Assembly (NCBI GenBank): GCA_026389455.1 | Contig: JAPLHV010000086.1 | Coordinates: 1-36,643, forward strand | Origin: Coprothermobacterota bacterium | GTDB lineage: Bacteria > Caldisericota > JANLFM01 | Direction: 5' to 3' | DNA: 36,643 nt | In this document: positions 2,617 through 29,375 of the stretch, one piece after another | Position numbering within the stretch: position 1 is the stretch's first letter | Layout: each line of letters starts with the position of its first letter | Program-made: the position numbers and the translations under genes | The notes under the pieces: generated by a model | Seen by the model: only the letters and a program-made list of their open reading frames with translations | Database searches by the model: none | Told to the model about the DNA's origin: nothing

Positions 2617-3467
2617 CGATTGCTGATTATTCCCGGGAAGCTACTGAAGCCTGCCTATCCGTACTGATGGAGTTGATGACTCTTCTTGGGGAAGACCGGG
2701 TTGCAAGTGTCGTGATAGGTGGGTTGGTCCCGCGCTTGTTGCTGGGAGAAATGGGCCAAAACCATGCAGGGACGCTGGATATCGACCTGGCTTTGGATGC
2801 TGGGAGAATCCCTCTGCGCAGCTATCGAACGATCTTACAACGACTTCAAGAGCACGGATACGAGATGATCAATCCCCAACAACCGTTCCGCTTCTCTCGT
2901 GTCGTTGGAAACCCTTCCGGCGGTATTCGTGTAGAAGTGGATTTCCTGGCAAGTCCCGATGAGGGCGCCGGGAAAGGTCACCGGCATCAGAGAATCCAGG
3001 GTTTACAAGCCCACAAGCTACCTGGCTGTGATTTGGCGTTTCAGCAGATGCGCAAAGTTCGCATTCAAGGCGTCTTACCGGAGGGGGGGACGATTGCTTG
3101 CGAAATCCAAGTTGCTGATGCTGTTCCCTTCTTGGTACTGAAAGGACTTGCGCTGGCCCAACGGATGAAAGCGAAGGATGCCTACGACATCTACTACGTG
3201 ATCCGTCATATTCCAGGAGAAGCCCGCCAACTGGTCGAGCTTTTTCAACCCTTTCTTACCCACGATCTGGTTCGGCAAGCGCTCCAGGCAATCGCGGACC
3301 GCTTCGCCACGCTGGAATCGGTGGGTTCTCTTTGGGTGGCCGATTTCTATGCAGAAGACGGGGAAGCCCGGCAAATCCGACTTCGCGATTCCTTTGAACG
3401 CGTGAATCAGCTCGTCGAGGCTTTGGGGTTCCATGGGTTGCAACCTTCCGTGAGGTCTCCTGGTTAG
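2610..3467 (+). CDS. AbiEii/AbiGii-like nucleotidyltransferase toxin
   Basis: A 285-residue protein of the DNA polymerase beta-like nucleotidyltransferase fold. It has the GG motif (Gly37-Gly38 in VVIGGLVPRLLL), the paired aspartates D57-I-D59 and a third candidate acidic residue, D111 in VEVDFLA. A later segment KAKDAYDIYYVI is typical of AbiEii-type proteins. Known AbiEii toxins arrest growth by transferring nucleotides, probably to tRNA, and are opposed by AbiEi without direct binding. I chose the GTG at 2610 because GGAG lies five bases upstream and the codon overlaps the stop of the antitoxin gene; an in-frame TTG at 2580 would add ten residues. The gene lies between pglX and pglZ in the same orientation, so the pair is embedded in the BREX locus. 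The actual substrate is unknown. Confidence 0.75.
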   Translation: MVTIADYSREATEACLSVLMELMTLLGEDRVASVVIGGLVPRLLLGEMGQNHAGTLDIDLALDAGRIPLRSYRTILQRLQEHGYEMINPQQPFRFSRVVGNPSGGIRVEVDFLASPDEGAGKGHRHQRIQGLQAHKLPGCDLAFQQMRKVRIQGVLPEGGTIACEIQVADAVPFLVLKGLALAQRMKAKDAYDIYYVIRHIPGEARQLVELFQPFLTHDLVRQALQAIADRFATLESVGSLWVADFYAEDGEARQIRLRDSFERVNQLVEALGFHGLQPSVRSPG

Positions 3468-3550
3468 GGCTGGGCGGATAGGAATCGGAGCGGGAACGGG
3501 GGGACTACATGAATTGATGACTGAGGGAACGGGCATCGCAGAGAGGAGGA

Positions 3551-6115
3551 ATGATGGGTTTCATCGCTGACTACTTGAAGGACTTGATCACCCAGCAGGC
3601 GGAAAGGTGGGGTGTGCTGGTCTGGTATGACCCGGAGAAGATCTATGGGCCGCTGGTCCAGTCTCTCTCCCTCTCCCTTTCGGATTGCCGGGTGGAGATC
3701 TACCATGACAGTTTCTTCGACCTGCGCTATCGCATCGAACCGTTTCTGGAGGCGATGGAAGGCCCTCCCAGGCTGTTGCTCTACATCCCCAAGGCGCAGA
3801 GCGATTGTTACTATGCTCTGGCTGAAGCGGAAGCCGCCGGAAAGGTGATGGAACCGGGCGCGCCCCGTCCGCTGAACAGCCGCTTTTTGGAGGTGGCGCA
3901 GCGGGTGGCGAAAGAGCGGGGTAAGTGGAGCGAGGAGGAGGCCGATCGGCTGGTGCAGGAGATCAAGCTGCAGCGATACCGGACTTTGGAAGAGGTGGAG
4001 TGGGTGATCGCGCATCATTCCTCGGCCTTGCTGTTGGTTTTCCAGACGGAGGAGCCGATCGAAGTCGCGCTGCGCTTTCTGCGAGATCCCCAGCGGGATG
4101 AAGCGCTGCTGGAGCGCCAGATCGTGGCCGATTTGGAGCAGCTTCTGGCGACGCGCTTCGGCATCCCGGTAGCCGAGGAGGAAAAGCCAGCCGAGCTGCG
4201 TCGTCGCTTCATCCGTTATCTCCTGATTAGCGAAGTGGTGGGGTCCCTGCCGGAGGTACCGCAAACCCTCTCGGGGGTTCCCTTGGCTTCCCCTGGGATC
4301 CATCGAGAGGCTTGTCGAGCGCTGGCGCAACGACTGCGGCAGGAGGGGGAAACAGAATACGCCGCGCTCGCGACCGTCGTCGAGGCGGAACTTCATCTGG
4401 AAAGCCTGACTCTCTCAATGGAAACGTTGGCAACCCTCGAGACCTTCCCGGGTTTGGAGCGCAGGCTCTTGGACGAGGTGGAACGCGCCATGGCCGGAAG
4501 CGTCGATGATGCGCTGCTGCAGCTTGCCCATGCGCGGCAGACTTTCTTCTGGGCGGGGCGAGATCTGGAGATCTTCGAGCACTGGAGGCTGCTGGAGGCT
4601 GTCGGCCGCGTCCGCTTGGAGGCGCGCCGGGTCGGGTTGGCGCTGGAATCTCCTCGCGAGACTGCCGAGGGGTATCTGAAGGCGTATGCTGAAGGCCCTT
4701 CGCCCTGGTGCCGGCTGGATCAAACCCATCGAGCGCTGGAGACGCTGGCTTGCTCCTTCTACTTCAAGCCTGATGGGACGCACGATAGCTTGTCCAGGTT
4801 GATCCTGAAAGCCAGAGAGGAAGCGCTGCGGGTGGACTCGCTGTTGACCCAAGCCTTCCTGCGCCAGTGGCAACGAGAGGGGTTCCCACAGCTTCTTCTC
4901 TCCCAAAAAGAGGTCTTCTTCCAGCGGGTGCAACCCTTCCTCAGCGAAGGGAAACGGGTCGCCTTTTTCGCCGTGGATGCCTTGCGGTACGAGCTGGCCC
5001 GCGAGTTGGCCGATTCCCTGGAGAAGGGATATGAAGTGAAGTTGGAACCTGCCATGGCCATGATCCCAACGGTGACCGAGGTGGGGATGGCGGCGCTGCT
5101 GCCGGGTAATGCCAAAGAGGTCGTTCTCTTAGGTGAGGATAAATTGGGGGTGAAGATCGATGGTACAGTTATCGCCAATCGCCCCGATCGCCTGGATTTC
5201 CTTCAAACCAACTTCCCGGGCGGGCTGATGCTGAAGCTGGAAGAGTTGTCCAATCCCTCGAAAGGGTTGCGGGAGAAGCTGAGCAACGCACCCGTGGTGA
5301 TGGTCACCTCGCAGGAGATCGACAGTGCTGCGGAAAGCCAAAGCGCACAAATGGCTCGCCAAATCATGGAGCTGGTCCCCCAGCAACTGGAGCGAGCTTT
5401 CCGCTTGCTCGCGGATCTAGGGTTCGAAGCCATCGTGGTAAGCGCAGACCATGGTTTCCTTCTTGGGGAAGCGGCCTCCAGTGAGAACCGGGTGGAGCCT
5501 CCCGGTGGGGAGACGATAATCCTGAGCCGGCGCTTCTGGCTGGGCCGAGGAGGAATCGCCAGCGAGGAATTCCTGCGGCTTCCCTTCCATCTCTGGAGCC
5601 TGGGATCCGATCTGGAATTGGCCACCCCGTGGAGCTTGGGCTTTTTCAAAGGGACGGTCAACCGGGCCTACGTTCATGGTGGGCTATCCCCCCAGGAGCT
5701 GGTGGCGCCCGTGCTCACCCTGCTACCCAAGATGCGCCAGGCCAAGCTTGAGAAGAGAAGCTGGATCTGGAAGCTGGAACCGAAGAGCGCCAAGATCAGC
5801 AACCGCGTCCTGCGAGTGGTGGTTGCCGCCAAATCCCAAGGTCTCTTTCCGCTTCCACCCCCCCGTGTACGCCTGGAAGTGATGGCGGGGAAAAGAGTGA
5901 TCGGTTCCGTCCAGACCGCCACCTATGGCTACGATGATGCCGCGAAAGTCGTCCAGATGCTTGCAGAGAGCGGATCGGAGACGCTGGCAACCAACACTTT
6001 CACGCTAGTCATCGATCAGGAATCGTCCGAGAAGAAGGCGATCCTGCGCCTGCTGGATGCGGAGAGCGGAGTGGAGCTGTCTCACAAGGAGATGGACCTG
6101 GACATTGCGATCTGA
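3551..6115 (+). CDS. pglZ: BREX-1 system alkaline-phosphatase-fold protein PglZ (type A)
   Basis: At 854 residues this has the usual length of BREX-1 PglZ. The central PglZ domain has metal-binding motifs of the alkaline phosphatase superfamily: VDALRYELA with Asp476 and, further on, SADHGF with Asp633-His634. The N-terminal 450 residues are largely helical. The last 130 residues form a beta-rich extension (LRVVVAAKSQGLFPLPPPRV onward). PglZ is a core component of all BREX types, needed for both modification and phage exclusion; its exact reaction is not settled. GAGGAGGA lies directly before the first of two adjacent ATGs (3551, 3554), so the second may be used. A gap of about 83 bases separates it from the AbiE-like toxin gene, and brxL follows 116 bases downstream. 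Confidence 0.93.
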   Translation: MMGFIADYLKDLITQQAERWGVLVWYDPEKIYGPLVQSLSLSLSDCRVEIYHDSFFDLRYRIEPFLEAMEGPPRLLLYIPKAQSDCYYALAEAEAAGKVMEPGAPRPLNSRFLEVAQRVAKERGKWSEEEADRLVQEIKLQRYRTLEEVEWVIAHHSSALLLVFQTEEPIEVALRFLRDPQRDEALLERQIVADLEQLLATRFGIPVAEEEKPAELRRRFIRYLLISEVVGSLPEVPQTLSGVPLASPGIHREACRALAQRLRQEGETEYAALATVVEAELHLESLTLSMETLATLETFPGLERRLLDEVERAMAGSVDDALLQLAHARQTFFWAGRDLEIFEHWRLLEAVGRVRLEARRVGLALESPRETAEGYLKAYAEGPSPWCRLDQTHRALETLACSFYFKPDGTHDSLSRLILKAREEALRVDSLLTQAFLRQWQREGFPQLLLSQKEVFFQRVQPFLSEGKRVAFFAVDALRYELARELADSLEKGYEVKLEPAMAMIPTVTEVGMAALLPGNAKEVVLLGEDKLGVKIDGTVIANRPDRLDFLQTNFPGGLMLKLEELSNPSKGLREKLSNAPVVMVTSQEIDSAAESQSAQMARQIMELVPQQLERAFRLLADLGFEAIVVSADHGFLLGEAASSENRVEPPGGETIILSRRFWLGRGGIASEEFLRLPFHLWSLGSDLELATPWSLGFFKGTVNRAYVHGGLSPQELVAPVLTLLPKMRQAKLEKRSWIWKLEPKSAKISNRVLRVVVAAKSQGLFPLPPPRVRLEVMAGKRVIGSVQTATYGYDDAAKVVQMLAESGSETLATNTFTLVIDQESSEKKAILRLLDAESGVELSHKEMDLDIAI

Positions 6116-8508: not shown

Positions 8509-8730
8509 CTGGGACCGCGGCGCCCCAGTGCGGCAAACCTGAGATCGGGTCCGTCCCTTTGACTGAGACCGTCCCTGTTACTGTCGGTTTTCCTGGGACC
8601 GCGGCGCCCCAGTGCGGCATCTGCAGTGGCAAGACGGAAGATAGCTAGGCTTGATTCTCCCTGGGACCGCGGCGCCCCAGTGCGGCAAACCTGAGATCGT
8701 GACTGTCCCTGGGACTGAGACCGCCCCAGG
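8509..8730. repeat. three copies of a GGGACCGCGGCGCCCCAGTG element
   Basis: Near-identical 27-bp units start at 8509, 8593 and 8661, each with core GGGACCGCGGCGCCCCAGTG flanked by CT and CGGCA. The ends CTGGG and CCCAG pair, so each unit can fold. The first and third copies also share the following AACCTGAGATCG. Bases 8703-8730 hold a related degenerate segment. No gene is visible in 8269-8920 apart from these repeats. A further copy occurs in reverse orientation within the ATPase E subunit gene. Confidence 0.8.
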
Positions 8731-15799: not shown

Positions 15800-15870
15800 G
15801 CGCCAATTTTGCTCTTTTCTATCACCGAAGAGAATCTTAACAATACAGCCTGCGGCAGCATGTGATTACG

Positions 15871-19582: not shown

Positions 19583-20197
19583 ATGAACGATGCTCTGATC
19601 CGCTTGCTGGAGGGAGAAGCCGCGGTCGAACAGCAGCGGATCCTAGAAGAAGCCCGATCCTACGCTCAGGAAACCGTCCAAGCCGCGCGCCGCTTAGCCG
19701 AGAATACTCTCGCGGAAGCCGGCCTCCGCTGGCAGCATTGGTCAGAAGCAGAGATGGAAAAGAGCATTAAAGCGCAGGCCTTGAAACGACAAACTCAGAT
19801 TCTGGAAGAGAAGACTCGTTGGTTGCAGGTCGCGCTGGCCAAAGCCAAGGAGACCCTCGCTAATTTCCGCCAGGACGCGCGCTACCCGGAGGTTTTCTTG
19901 CGCTTGGCGAGAGACTTCGATGAAGATGGCCGCACTGGGGCGCCTCGGTCCCAGTCCCAGGGGGATCAGGATACGTGGGTGTTAACCGTCCATCCTCTCG
20001 ATCAGAAACTCCTGGAAGGGGATCTCGCAAACCGGGTCATCCAGGACCAAACCCTCCCCCCCGGGCTCCTCGCCCAGACCGCAGACGGCAAAATTGAAGT
20101 GCGCGACACCCTCGCGGATCGCCTGGAAAAAGGTTGGCCGATCCTCATGGGAAGAGCGGCGGAATTGCTCTGGGACACCCTGCCGGGGGCTGTCTAG
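19583..20197 (+). CDS. atpE: V-type ATP synthase subunit E, interrupted in frame by a dispersed repeat
   Basis: The 204-residue stator subunit has an N-terminal helical half (QQRILEEARSYAQETVQAAR) and a C-terminal globular half. Subunit E pairs with G/H to hold the catalytic head. Two parts of the gene are repeat DNA. Residues about 116-127 (GRTGAPRSQSQG), at the junction before the strand TWVLTVHP, are encoded by a reverse copy of the GGGACCGCGGCGCCCCAGTG element, with one mismatch in the aligned 26 bases. The last residues (DTLPGAV) and the TAG stop are encoded by the ACACCCTGCCGGGGGCTGT unit. The frame is intact, and the gene is in an otherwise normal operon, so the altered protein is presumably functional. 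Start ATG at 19583, four bases after the K gene. Confidence 0.88.
   Translation: MNDALIRLLEGEAAVEQQRILEEARSYAQETVQAARRLAENTLAEAGLRWQHWSEAEMEKSIKAQALKRQTQILEEKTRWLQVALAKAKETLANFRQDARYPEVFLRLARDFDEDGRTGAPRSQSQGDQDTWVLTVHPLDQKLLEGDLANRVIQDQTLPPGLLAQTADGKIEVRDTLADRLEKGWPILMGRAAELLWDTLPGAV
19928..19963 (-). repeat. GGGACCGCGGCGCCCCAGTG element inside the ATPase E gene
   Basis: Read on the minus strand, CCCTGGGACTGGGACCGAGG continues into CGCCCCAGTGCGGC. The last 26 bases match the three copies at 8509-8687 with a single change. The copy keeps the reading frame of the host gene. Confidence 0.8.
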
Positions 20198-20246
20198 TTG
20201 CCGGGGGCTGTCTAGTTGCCGGGGGCTGTCTAGTTGCCGGGGGCTG
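20174..20246 (+). repeat. 18-bp tandem array between the ATPase E and C genes
   Basis: GACACCC leads into three exact units TGCCGGGGGCTGTCTAGT (20181-20234) and a partial fourth TGCCGGGGGCTG. The first unit supplies the stop codon of the E gene, and every unit repeats a TAG. The ribosome binding site of the C gene starts immediately at the array end. Confidence 0.9.
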
Positions 20247-23311: not shown

Positions 23312-24775
23312 ATGCTGCCGAAGGCTGTCTTGCCGCAGGCTGTCAACGTTATGGATCTCGCACAAAAGAAATACAAGACCATCTCTTACGTCTCGGGCCC
23401 TCTATTGTTCGTCGAGCGAGCCCATGACCTTTCCTACGGCTCCTTGGTGAACATTTACCTGCCGGACGGCTCGATCAGGGGCGGGCAGACCATCGAGATC
23501 TCCGAGCGGCATGCCGTGATCCAGGTCTTTGAGGAGACTCGGGGCATCGACATCGCCAACAGCAGTATCAGCTTGAAGGAAGATGTGGCCAGACTGGCCG
23601 TCTCCAAGGAGATGATCGGCCGTCGCTTCAACGGACTGGGCGATCCGATCGACGGCCTCCCACCGATCATTCCCGAAGCGCGTCCCGAGATCATCGGCTC
23701 CCCAATCAACCCCACTTCCCGGGCCAAGCCGGAGGAATTTATCCAGACCGGCATCTCTTCCATTGACGGGTTCAACACCCTGGTCCGCGGGCAGAAACTA
23801 CCCATCTTCTCCGGAGCAGGCCTTCCGGCCAATGAGATCGCCGCCCAGATCGTACGCCAAGCCAAGGTCTTGGGAGAAGCTGAAGAGTTCGCCGTGGTCT
23901 TCGCCGCCATGGGGATCACCCACCGTGAAGCTTCCTTCTTCATCCACGAGTTCGAATCTACCGGCGCTCTGAGCAAGACGGTGGTCTTCATGAACAAAGC
24001 CGACGACCCAACCATCGAGCGCTTGCTGACTCCCCGCTGCGCGCTGACCTGCGCCGAGCACCTGGCCTACCAGCACGACTACCATGTGTTGGTGATCCTC
24101 ACCGATATGACCAATTATTGCGAGGCCCTTCGCGAGGTAGGAACCGCCCGCGAGGAGATCCCCGGCCGTCGTGGGTATCCCGGCTATATGTACACCGACT
24201 TAGCAACCATCTATGAACGGGCAGGCCGGATCAAGGGCCGGAAAGGCACGATCACCCAGATCCCGATCCTGACCATGCCGGACGACGACATTACCCACCC
24301 CATCGCCGACCTCACTGGCTACATTACCGAGGGCCAGTTGGTTCTCTCGCGCCAACTGCATCGCCTCGGCTACTTCCCACCCATCGACGTCCTCCCTTCC
24401 CTCTCCCGCTTGATGAACAACGGCATCGGCGGCGGACATACCCGCGAGGACCACCGCGAGTGGGCCAACCAGCTCTATGCGGCTTACTCTACCGGACGGG
24501 ACTTGCGTAAACTGGTGGCCATCATCGGAGAGGAAGCCCTCACCCCCACTGACCGCATGTACCTCAAGCTGGCAGAGACCTTCGAACAGCAGATGATCAA
24601 CCAGGGAGACTCGGACCGCTCCATCCAGGAGACCTTGCAGTTAGGCTGGAATCTCCTTTCCCACCTTCCCGAACGTGAACTGAAGCGCATCTCGCGCAAC
24701 AGCTTGGGCAAGTATTACGTGCCCGGAATGGAAGATCTATGGGAACACCAGGCGGAAAAGACGCGCCGGGGTTGA
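23312..24775 (+). CDS. atpB: V-type ATP synthase non-catalytic subunit B
   Basis: Conserved B-subunit blocks are present: [14 protein letters not shown], a nucleotide-site region without a P-loop ([20 protein letters not shown]), [20 protein letters not shown] and [20 protein letters not shown]. It alternates with A subunits in the head. From the ATG at 23312 the product has 487 residues. Its first 13 residues are encoded by two degenerate copies of the CCGGGGGCTGTC unit, and most family members begin close to the ATG at 23351 ([11 protein letters not shown]). I keep the longer form because an AAAGAG precedes it and the shorter start has no visible binding site. Confidence 0.93.
23314..23346 (+). 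repeat. two degenerate CCGGGGGCTGTC units at the 5' end of atpB
   Basis: TGCCGAAGGCTGTCT and TGCCGCAGGCTGTCA are consecutive copies of the dispersed unit with two and one or two changes in the GGGGG core. They occupy the first codons of the long form of atpB. Confidence 0.6.
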
Positions 24776-24792: not shown

Positions 24793-24905
24793 TCCCTGCC
24801 GGGGGCTGTCATGCTGCCGGGGAGGGCGGGTTTGAAACCCGCCCCTACACATGCTGCCGGGGGCTGTCAACATAACTGTAGGGGCGGGTTTGAAACCCGC
24901 CCTAT
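24793..24905 (+). repeat. composite dispersed repeat between atpB and atpD
   Basis: In order: a CCCTGCCGGGGGCTGTC unit (24794-24810); a partial unit; the palindrome with core GGCGGGTTTGAAACCCGCC (24824-24844) ending CCCTAC; another CTGCCGGGGGCTGTC; then a second palindrome copy (24882-24902) preceded by TGTAGG. It fills nearly all of the 144-base gap inside the ATPase operon and ends directly before the AAGGAG of atpD. The first part matches 26009-26083 in opposite orientation. Confidence 0.9.
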
Positions 24906-25572: not shown

Positions 25573-26061
25573 CACCTCCATCAGGAAAGCGTCCTCATCG
25601 TTGTCGCGGTAGTACGCTTTTCGCAGCCCGATATAGCGGAAACCATGCTTAAGGTAGAGGTTGAGGGCTCGCGCGTTGCTCGCCCGCACCTCCAAGATGG
25701 CGCAACGCGCCCCATGATGGCCGGCTATTTCCAGAGCAAAGAGGAGTAACTTCTCTCCTACTCCTTGACGCCGGAAATCCGGAGAGACAGCAATGTTGGT
25801 GATGTGAGCTTCATCAACCACCAGCCACATCCCAATGAAACCAGCTATCCTTTCCCCGGCCTCCACTAAGAAGTAGTAGGCCAGTTGGTTGTAGGTGATC
25901 TCGCGCAAGAAATCGGAAGACGTCCATGGGGTGCGGTAGGAAGCCTCTTCAATCTCGAGGATCTGCTCTAGATCATGTACGCCGATCGGTCGAATGAGCA
26001 GCTCAATGCCCCCAGCAGCATGTGTAGGGGCGGGTTTGAAACCCGCCCTCCCCGGCGCCAT
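25564..26061 (-). CDS. rimI: RimI-like ribosomal-protein alanine N-acetyltransferase
   Basis: A GNAT-fold protein. IRPIGVHDLEQILEIEEASY is followed by TPWTSSDFLREI, the acetyl-CoA binding segment NIAVSPDFRRQGVGEKLLLF, and LEVRASNARALNLYLKHGFR then YIGLRKAYY with the terminal tyrosines of RimI. It would acetylate the N-terminal Ala of ribosomal protein S18 or similar substrates. From the ATG at 26061 it has 165 residues, close to the family norm of about 150. The first 18 or so (MAPGRAGFKPAPTHAAGG) are encoded by a composite repeat. The frame continues upstream to 26220, but that part is not RimI-like. The start is therefore uncertain and appears to be provided by the repeat. Confidence 0.85.
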   Translation of the reverse strand: MAPGRAGFKPAPTHAAGGIELLIRPIGVHDLEQILEIEEASYRTPWTSSDFLREITYNQLAYYFLVEAGERIAGFIGMWLVVDEAHITNIAVSPDFRRQGVGEKLLLFALEIAGHHGARCAILEVRASNARALNLYLKHGFRYIGLRKAYYRDNDEDAFLMEVKI

Positions 26062-28345: not shown

Positions 28346-28459
28346 TGTCTTCACCTCTCTCTTTCTAACTGAATTTGGATATGCTTCACTTTCCTAAACA
28401 GCCTGCTTCGCACGTGTGAGATGCGGTCCAAGATCCAAGGTCAAGAGGACTTTGTGTAG

Positions 28460-28534
28460 GGGCGGGTTTGAAACCCGCCCTTGAGTCAGCATCTTCTCAA
28501 CCCCCGGCAGCATCTCAGCCCCCGGCAGGGTGTT
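28460..28534 (-). repeat. composite dispersed repeat at the 3' end of folD
   Basis: A palindrome copy lies at 28460-28480, and two CCGGGGG units lie at 28499-28534 on the minus strand (ACACCCTGCCGGGGGCTGA, then GATGCTGCCGGGGGTTGA). The first unit encodes the last residues and the stop of FolD. Confidence 0.85.
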
Positions 28535-29375
28535 CTGTATTCAAGGCAGTAGCCTCCATCGCCGCCTCCAGCAAGACAGCCGTGGTGATCGGGCCAACCC
28601 CGCCAGGGACCGGAGTGATCGCCGAGGCCAATGGCTCCACTTCTTTGAAACAAACATCTCCTACCAATCGCCCTCCCGTCCAGGTCATCCCCACATCGAT
28701 CACCACCGCCCCTGGACGGATGAAGGCGGCGCCAACCATCTCGGGTTGACCGGCGACACAGATCAGGATCTCCGCTTGGCGGGCGATCTCGGATAAATGA
28801 ACGGTCTTGCTGTGACAGATTGTCACAGTGGCGTCCCGCTGCAGGCACATCCAGGCAATAGCCCGGCCGGCGGAAGGTCCCCGGCCGATGATCACCACAC
28901 GACGTCCGGCCAGGGAGATCTGATAGTAGCTCAACAATTCGTCCACCGCTCGTGCTGTAGACGGGATAAAGGCAGGGCGCCCGGAAAAAAAGAGGCCAAG
29001 CGTGTGTGGACTGATGGCATCAACGTCCTTGGATGGTGGGATAACCGGCGCCACTGCTTCCCGACGGATCTGCGCCGGCAAGGGGACCAAGGGAAGCATG
29101 CCGTGAACTGCCGGGTCAGCGCCGATACGCTGCAATTGCGCCATATATTCTCCCTCACAGATCGTCTCCGGAAGGGTATGTTTCTCCACTGCCATGCCTA
29201 GACTGCGGCCGCTTCTGGCAAGCCCCTCGGCATAAACGGCAGAGGATCCCTGATCGCCGCAAAGGATCAGGTCAAGGCGAGGGAGCACTCCTTGTTCCTG
29301 CCACCAACGCGCCCCCTCCGCCACCTTCGCGCGGATTTCTTCCTGCAAGGGGCGGGCGCTTAGAAGAAGAGTCAC
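28515..29375 (-). CDS. folD: divergent FolD-like methylenetetrahydrofolate dehydrogenase
   Basis: At 286 residues it has the FolD length and the NADP-binding domain is well conserved: VVIIGRGPSAGRAIAWMCLQ, ATVTICHSKT, GAVVIDVGMTW and ITPVPGGVGPITTAVLLEAA. The catalytic domain is altered. The Lys of YxxxK is Leu (VYAEGLARS), the Gln of VQLPLP is Leu (LPLVPLP) and PCTPxG reads PSTARA, while the Asp of KDVD is kept. FolD normally interconverts methylene- and formyl-tetrahydrofolate; loss of the Lys and Gln argues against the cyclohydrolase step. The GTG start overlaps the ddl stop by four bases, so the two are coupled. The last residues (EHPAGG) and the stop come from a dispersed repeat. Confidence 0.85.
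   Translation of the reverse strand: MTLLLSARPLQEEIRAKVAEGARWWQEQGVLPRLDLILCGDQGSSAVYAEGLARSGRSLGMAVEKHTLPETICEGEYMAQLQRIGADPAVHGMLPLVPLPAQIRREAVAPVIPPSKDVDAISPHTLGLFFSGRPAFIPSTARAVDELLSYYQISLAGRRVVIIGRGPSAGRAIAWMCLQRDATVTICHSKTVHLSEIARQAEILICVAGQPEMVGAAFIRPGAVVIDVGMTWTGGRLVGDVCFKEVEPLASAITPVPGGVGPITTAVLLEAAMEATALNTEHPAGG

Follow-up and report, generated by a model that had tools for sequence, protein, structure and literature searches.

An in-frame insertion of a dispersed repeat in the V/A-ATPase stator subunit E gene of a Coprothermobacterota bacterium

The gene for V/A-ATPase stator subunit E in a Coprothermobacterota bacterium carries an in-frame insertion of a dispersed repeat in an otherwise ordinary stator subunit, as is confirmed here by analysis of a 36,643-nucleotide contig (the window) from a 2.63-Mb draft genome (G000) that consists of 263 contigs and is 89% complete. 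The inserted sequence is very probably a single copy of a genus-specific, imperfect 26-nt hairpin that makes up the inverted termini of a REP-associated tyrosine transposase (RAYT) element. It would have entered the gene before the split between two species of the genus.

A repeat copy is read in frame in the E-subunit gene

The longest repeat match in the window pairs the intergenic positions 8509-8534 with positions 19929-19954 in the E gene, 26 nt that are 96% complementary (Table 1). When the window was searched with a 20-mer of the repeat, three exact copies were found, all in the intergenic stretch 8511-8682, along with a minus-strand match at 19933-19952 that differs at one base; in shuffled sequence, 0.02 matches are expected per whole window. 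A sequence-only reading of this DNA had described a reverse copy with one change in 26 bases that encodes about 12 residues of the protein. Both parts of that description hold, as 25 of the 26 bases match and the open reading frame at 19583-20197 stays open across the repeat, where codons 116-127 are read through as GRTGAPRSQSQG. The repeat-derived peptide is presumably translated.

Table 1. Positions of the repeat copies and related features in the window
Feature	Position	Strand	Evidence or remark
V/A-ATPase stator subunit E gene	19583..20197	+	Structural match 3v6i_A; 47 aligned orthologues
RAYT terminal repeat, in-frame copy in the E-subunit gene	19929..19954	-	25/26 bases identical to intergenic copies
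E codons 116-127, GRTGAPRSQSQG	19928..19963	+	Most of a net insertion of ~13 residues relative to insert-free E subunits
Direct GTCCCA duplication	19948..19959	+	6-nt gap in the alignment with G001 (same-genus genome)
Predicted E peptides at the insert, DEDGRTGAPR and SQSQGDQDTWVLTVHPLDQK			
RAYT terminal repeat, intergenic copy	8509..8534	+	Repeat match
RAYT terminal repeat, intergenic copy	8593..8618	+	Repeat match
RAYT terminal repeat, intergenic copy	8661..8686	+	Repeat match
Second, unrelated repeat in the E gene, 72-nt array of an 18-nt unit	20174..20245	+	Empty site in G001

The E protein scored 17.9 bits against Pfam PF01991, which is under the cut-off of 24.2. The top structural match of its model is 3v6i_A, the E chain of the Thermus thermophilus peripheral stalk, and the gene lies between those of the K and C subunits in an intact operon, so that both fold and gene order identify it as E. 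This fold match and the 47 orthologues that could be aligned bear out the earlier description of an otherwise ordinary V-ATPase E stator subunit.

The E orthologue of a second species of the genus (G001) is 86% identical and carries the element at the same site, the insert region reading DEESRTGVRRSQDSQDSW in G001 and DEDGRTGAPRSQSQGDQDTW in the window. The window copy has six extra bases in the form of the GTCCCA duplication, which lengthens its insert by two codons relative to G001. Between fixed alignment columns, the loop joining helix and strand has 23 residues in the window and 21 in G001, compared to 7 to 12 in the other 47 E subunits. These comprise three orthologues from the same family (32 to 36% identical) and 44 from loci of other bacteria and archaea, and the insert is absent from all of them; the only other E with the segment comes from G001, the only other repeat-rich genome. 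This distribution indicates that the insertion occurred in the lineage of the genus, before the split of the two sampled species. Repeat-free orthologues with the same residues at this position, which would speak against an insertion, were sought among these 47, and none has the segment. The precise insertion anticipated by the sequence-only reading is thus seen as a segment that relatives lack, but its exact edges are not visible in the alignment, because insert-free orthologues at most ~36% identical are too distant to fix them to the base.

The repeat family is abundant in one genus

A pattern search allowing up to two mismatches found 196 copies of the repeat in the window genome, and the reversed control pattern found none there. 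A wider search detected 199 copies in G000 and 73 in G001. Among 59 other genomes, three of them from the same family, 58 had no copy and one had a single one-mismatch match. By these counts, the repeat family is confined to one genus.

For further analysis, 183 of the 199 copies in G000 and 66 of the 73 in G001 were fetched. Many copies stand singly, with clean edges at 26 nt and unrelated sequence on either side. In the main variant, a 7-bp stem closes a hairpin (GCCGCAC/GTGCGGC, z = -3.0); the CGCCG and CGCCA variants, like the copy in the E gene of the window, fold no better than shuffled sequence. No GTAG head was found in 252 copies, and GTGG was not among the tetramers listed; the tetramer 5' of the stem is in most cases GATG, TTTG, or GGAG.

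The repeat marks the ends of a RAYT element

Across both genomes, 59 head-to-head pairs of copies lie within 1.2 kb of each other, some of them nested, and the DNA between paired copies encodes fragments of one protein. An intact version of this protein, found in G001 (G001:C152:18379-19038), was recognized as a RAYT by NF047646 (96 bits, cut-off of 80) and has a weak match to the solved TnpArep structure 4er8. It has inverted copies of the repeat near both ends, inside its open reading frame, read as PGTAAPQCG at the 5' side and as SRTGVRRS towards the 3' side; the latter frame is the one used in E. The inverted copies near both ends of the intact RAYT and the RAYT pieces between paired copies together indicate that RAYT elements terminate in this repeat. 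Inverted copies at RAYT ends, a high copy number, and a location mainly outside genes are features that it shares with RAYT-associated repeats. Given the lack of GTAG heads in 252 copies, it resembles the TIR-type repeats of RAYTs (TIRYT; PMC3733652) more than canonical REPs (PMC2817692). Most paired copies are internally deleted, MITE-like derivatives of the RAYT. An intact RAYT of the subfamily of this repeat was not found in the incomplete genome to which the window belongs.

Other genes carry copies of the repeat

Only five of the 183 fetched G000 copies lie within called genes with coding-like codon usage, compared to ~109 expected at random, indicating that genes are strongly avoided or purged of the repeat. 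Many open reading frames that span copies were set aside as spurious since their codon usage was not coding-like on both sides. In the case of dnaX (L165), the true start of the gene probably lies downstream of the copy. A DinB-like open reading frame (L268) is probably broken and was absent from the four other genomes in which it was sought; it was not counted, nor was a G001 copy with two mismatches near the C terminus of a nuclease (L280, 3942).

A search for other in-frame copies across the genome, proposed in the earlier reading, found them in RimO and MnmA and at the C termini of NuoJ, a 2Fe-2S subunit, and NnrD, so that E is not a unique case. The internal genic copies in the window genome are those in E and in the TRAM domain of RimO, where the segment is present in both species and absent from three outgroups. 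An internal copy in MnmA of G001 adds ~10 residues relative to three outgroups; an MnmA orthologue was not found in the draft genome of the window. The C termini of NuoJ and of the 2Fe-2S subunit are extended by the repeat in both species, the latter with at least three tandem copies in G001. The C terminus of NnrD is extended in G001; in the window genome, a stop codon immediately precedes the repeat. Genic copies use at least four reading frames. All of these genic copies and those in the RAYT have the 26-nt core in common, and their flanks are unrelated just outside it.

At the 2Fe-2S subunit gene, two G001 contigs (L265 and L286, the ends of G001:C88 and C191) both terminate in at least three tandem copies of 36 nt, and the window genome has one copy there. 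The tandem repeat probably broke the G001 assembly at this point.

Repeats of other kinds were also observed. The array of 18-nt units at the end of the E gene supplies the C terminus DTLPGAV and the stop, and the G001 protein ends LLWKK*; with the RAYT repeat, the array amounts to two unrelated repeat insertions in the E gene of the window species. A copy of the 18-nt family at 28515-28537 on the minus strand contains the TGA stop of folD, the product of which ends NTEHPAGG. The called B-subunit open reading frame starts in repeat sequence at 23312-23350, and its true start may be downstream. A different dispersed palindrome, GTAGGGGCGGGTTTGAAACCCGCCC, which resembles a GTAG-tagged REP, occurs at 24823-24849, 24877-24903, 26021-26049, and 28453-28481. 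At 15846-15863, an 18-nt insertion, CAGCCTGCGGCAGCATGT, comes from another dispersed repeat and is absent from G001. Outside the window, the linker of DnaX (L165, G000:C33, open reading frame 3177-5138) holds PAGGCQAAGGCQAAGGC, apparently one more dispersed repeat in frame.

Subunit E is under purifying selection on both sides of the insert

Comparison of the E genes of the window and G001 gave dN/dS values of 0.32 upstream and 0.09 downstream of the insert, with a significant excess of synonymous changes in both parts (P = 0.002 and 2e-5, respectively). Purifying selection on E therefore persists on both sides of the insert, and the frame has been kept despite a length difference of six bases between the two species.

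An AlphaFold2 model of E, made with an alignment of 34 other E subunits as input, has a mean pLDDT of 91 that falls to 71 and 58 over residues 111-130. This segment is modeled as unstructured between a helix (101-118) and a strand (132-136), in agreement with the earlier proposal that the insert occupies a tolerant loop preceding a beta strand. Most likely, the insert now has little or no effect on the ATPase.

Origin of the insertion

The anatomy of the repeat suggests that a RAYT could have made the insertion in E by single-strand cleavage and joining at the hairpin. The landing site would have been the loop that joins the stalk helix to the first strand of the globular domain, and the copy may have persisted because it added a net length divisible by three, its frame was free of stops, and it had landed in a loop.

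The repeat could instead have entered E passively, through recombination or repair with repeat DNA or through gene conversion, with the RAYT spreading only the longer paired elements. The orthologous E copies belong to different subfamilies, tandem copies lie at the end of the 2Fe-2S subunit gene, and other repeat arrays abound in the genome, from which it is clear that copying without a transposase happens in this genome. As the source of the E insertion, we nevertheless consider it unlikely, since many single copies have clean 26-nt edges and lie in unrelated sequence, as expected of a unit that a transposase recognizes.

The subfamily difference bears also on what happened after the insertion. 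The E copies have the cores CGCCT in the window and TGCGG in G001 (G001:C113:1637-1656) and differ at 4 of 26 bases. The window copy, of the CGCCT subfamily, also carries an AGTCCCAGG tail. Different subfamily cores at one site hint at gene conversion or re-insertion, and genic copies might be rewritten from the intergenic pool without loss of frame, in which case a mobile repeat would still be editing a stator loop. Plain divergence suffices in number for the four differences, and we regard such rewriting as rather improbable.

There is little likelihood that the inserted loop has acquired a function, such as a new stator contact. It has been kept in two species, in a gene under selection, but disorder is predicted for it, the two species differ in its sequence and length, and similar copies occur at loops and tails of unrelated proteins.

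Still less credible is a loop extension native to E with a chance resemblance to the repeat, or an E gene that seeded the repeat family. Loop lengths of 7 to 12 residues in other E subunits suggest that changes of length are tolerated there, but 25 of 26 bases match where 0.02 matches are expected, the same core is read in other frames in RimO, NuoJ, MnmA, and the RAYT, and the outgroups are free of the insert. We therefore reject chance resemblance, given also the absence of reversed-control matches and the restriction of the copies to one genus; as for a source in the E gene, the ~200 copies are explained by the RAYT and its remnants and not by E.

An assembly artefact or a pseudogene is hardly conceivable and was rejected: both genomes are drafts of more than 250 contigs, and repeats break assemblies, but two separate drafts of different species have the repeat at the same site in an intact operon, and the reading frame is intact, with dN/dS values well under 1 before and after the insert.

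Comparison with known systems

We conclude that insertion of a RAYT-associated hairpin remains the best explanation for the E segment. The family resembles REPs and REPtrons and their TIR-flanked TIRYT/TIRtron variants (PMC2817692; PMC3733652) in that its copies are short, GC rich, partly palindromic, more than 100 in number, and mostly intergenic, and in that inverted pairs surround a Y1 transposase gene and sometimes overlap the gene ends. It differs from these systems in lacking a GT(A/G)G head, in having its 3' repeat at some distance within the RAYT reading frame, and in that most pairs bound internally deleted, MITE-like pieces of the RAYT.

In-frame palindromic insertions are known from Rickettsia (PMC10969869). 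The sequence-only reading held that such invasion of coding genes is rare outside Rickettsia-type cases, which is too strong, because intragenic REP-type insertions are documented in several bacteria; intragenic REPs are known in many genera, among them Opitutus, Thioalkalivibrio, Thauera, and Rickettsia (PMC3733652). The Rickettsia palindromic elements (RPEs; cited in PMC10969869) are likewise palindromic and in frame in unrelated housekeeping proteins. They are ~150 bp long and add tens of residues, whereas the copies here add 10 to 15 residues, use at least four frames, and are linked to a RAYT.

Like the intragenic GTAG and CGTC REPs (PMC3733652), the repeat is found in frame in housekeeping genes, at loops, linkers, and termini, and its ends can supply stop codons. 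Those REPs are tagged with GTAG or CGTC and often occur as dimers of 20 to 30 residues in replication and repair genes, whereas single TIR-type units of 10 to 15 residues are found here in E, RimO, and MnmA, the loops of which accept that many foreign residues. Short repeats of this kind also call for caution, as they can create false orthologue differences in metagenome-assembled genomes. In-frame insertion of REP-type repeats is already known, and the value of the present case lies in evidence that is datable, covers several genes, and is linked to a RAYT. The insertion is shared with a sister species and missing from outgroups, selection on the gene has been measured, and six or more genes are targets, which makes this a clean example of mobile-element ends from one RAYT repeat family turned into protein sequence.
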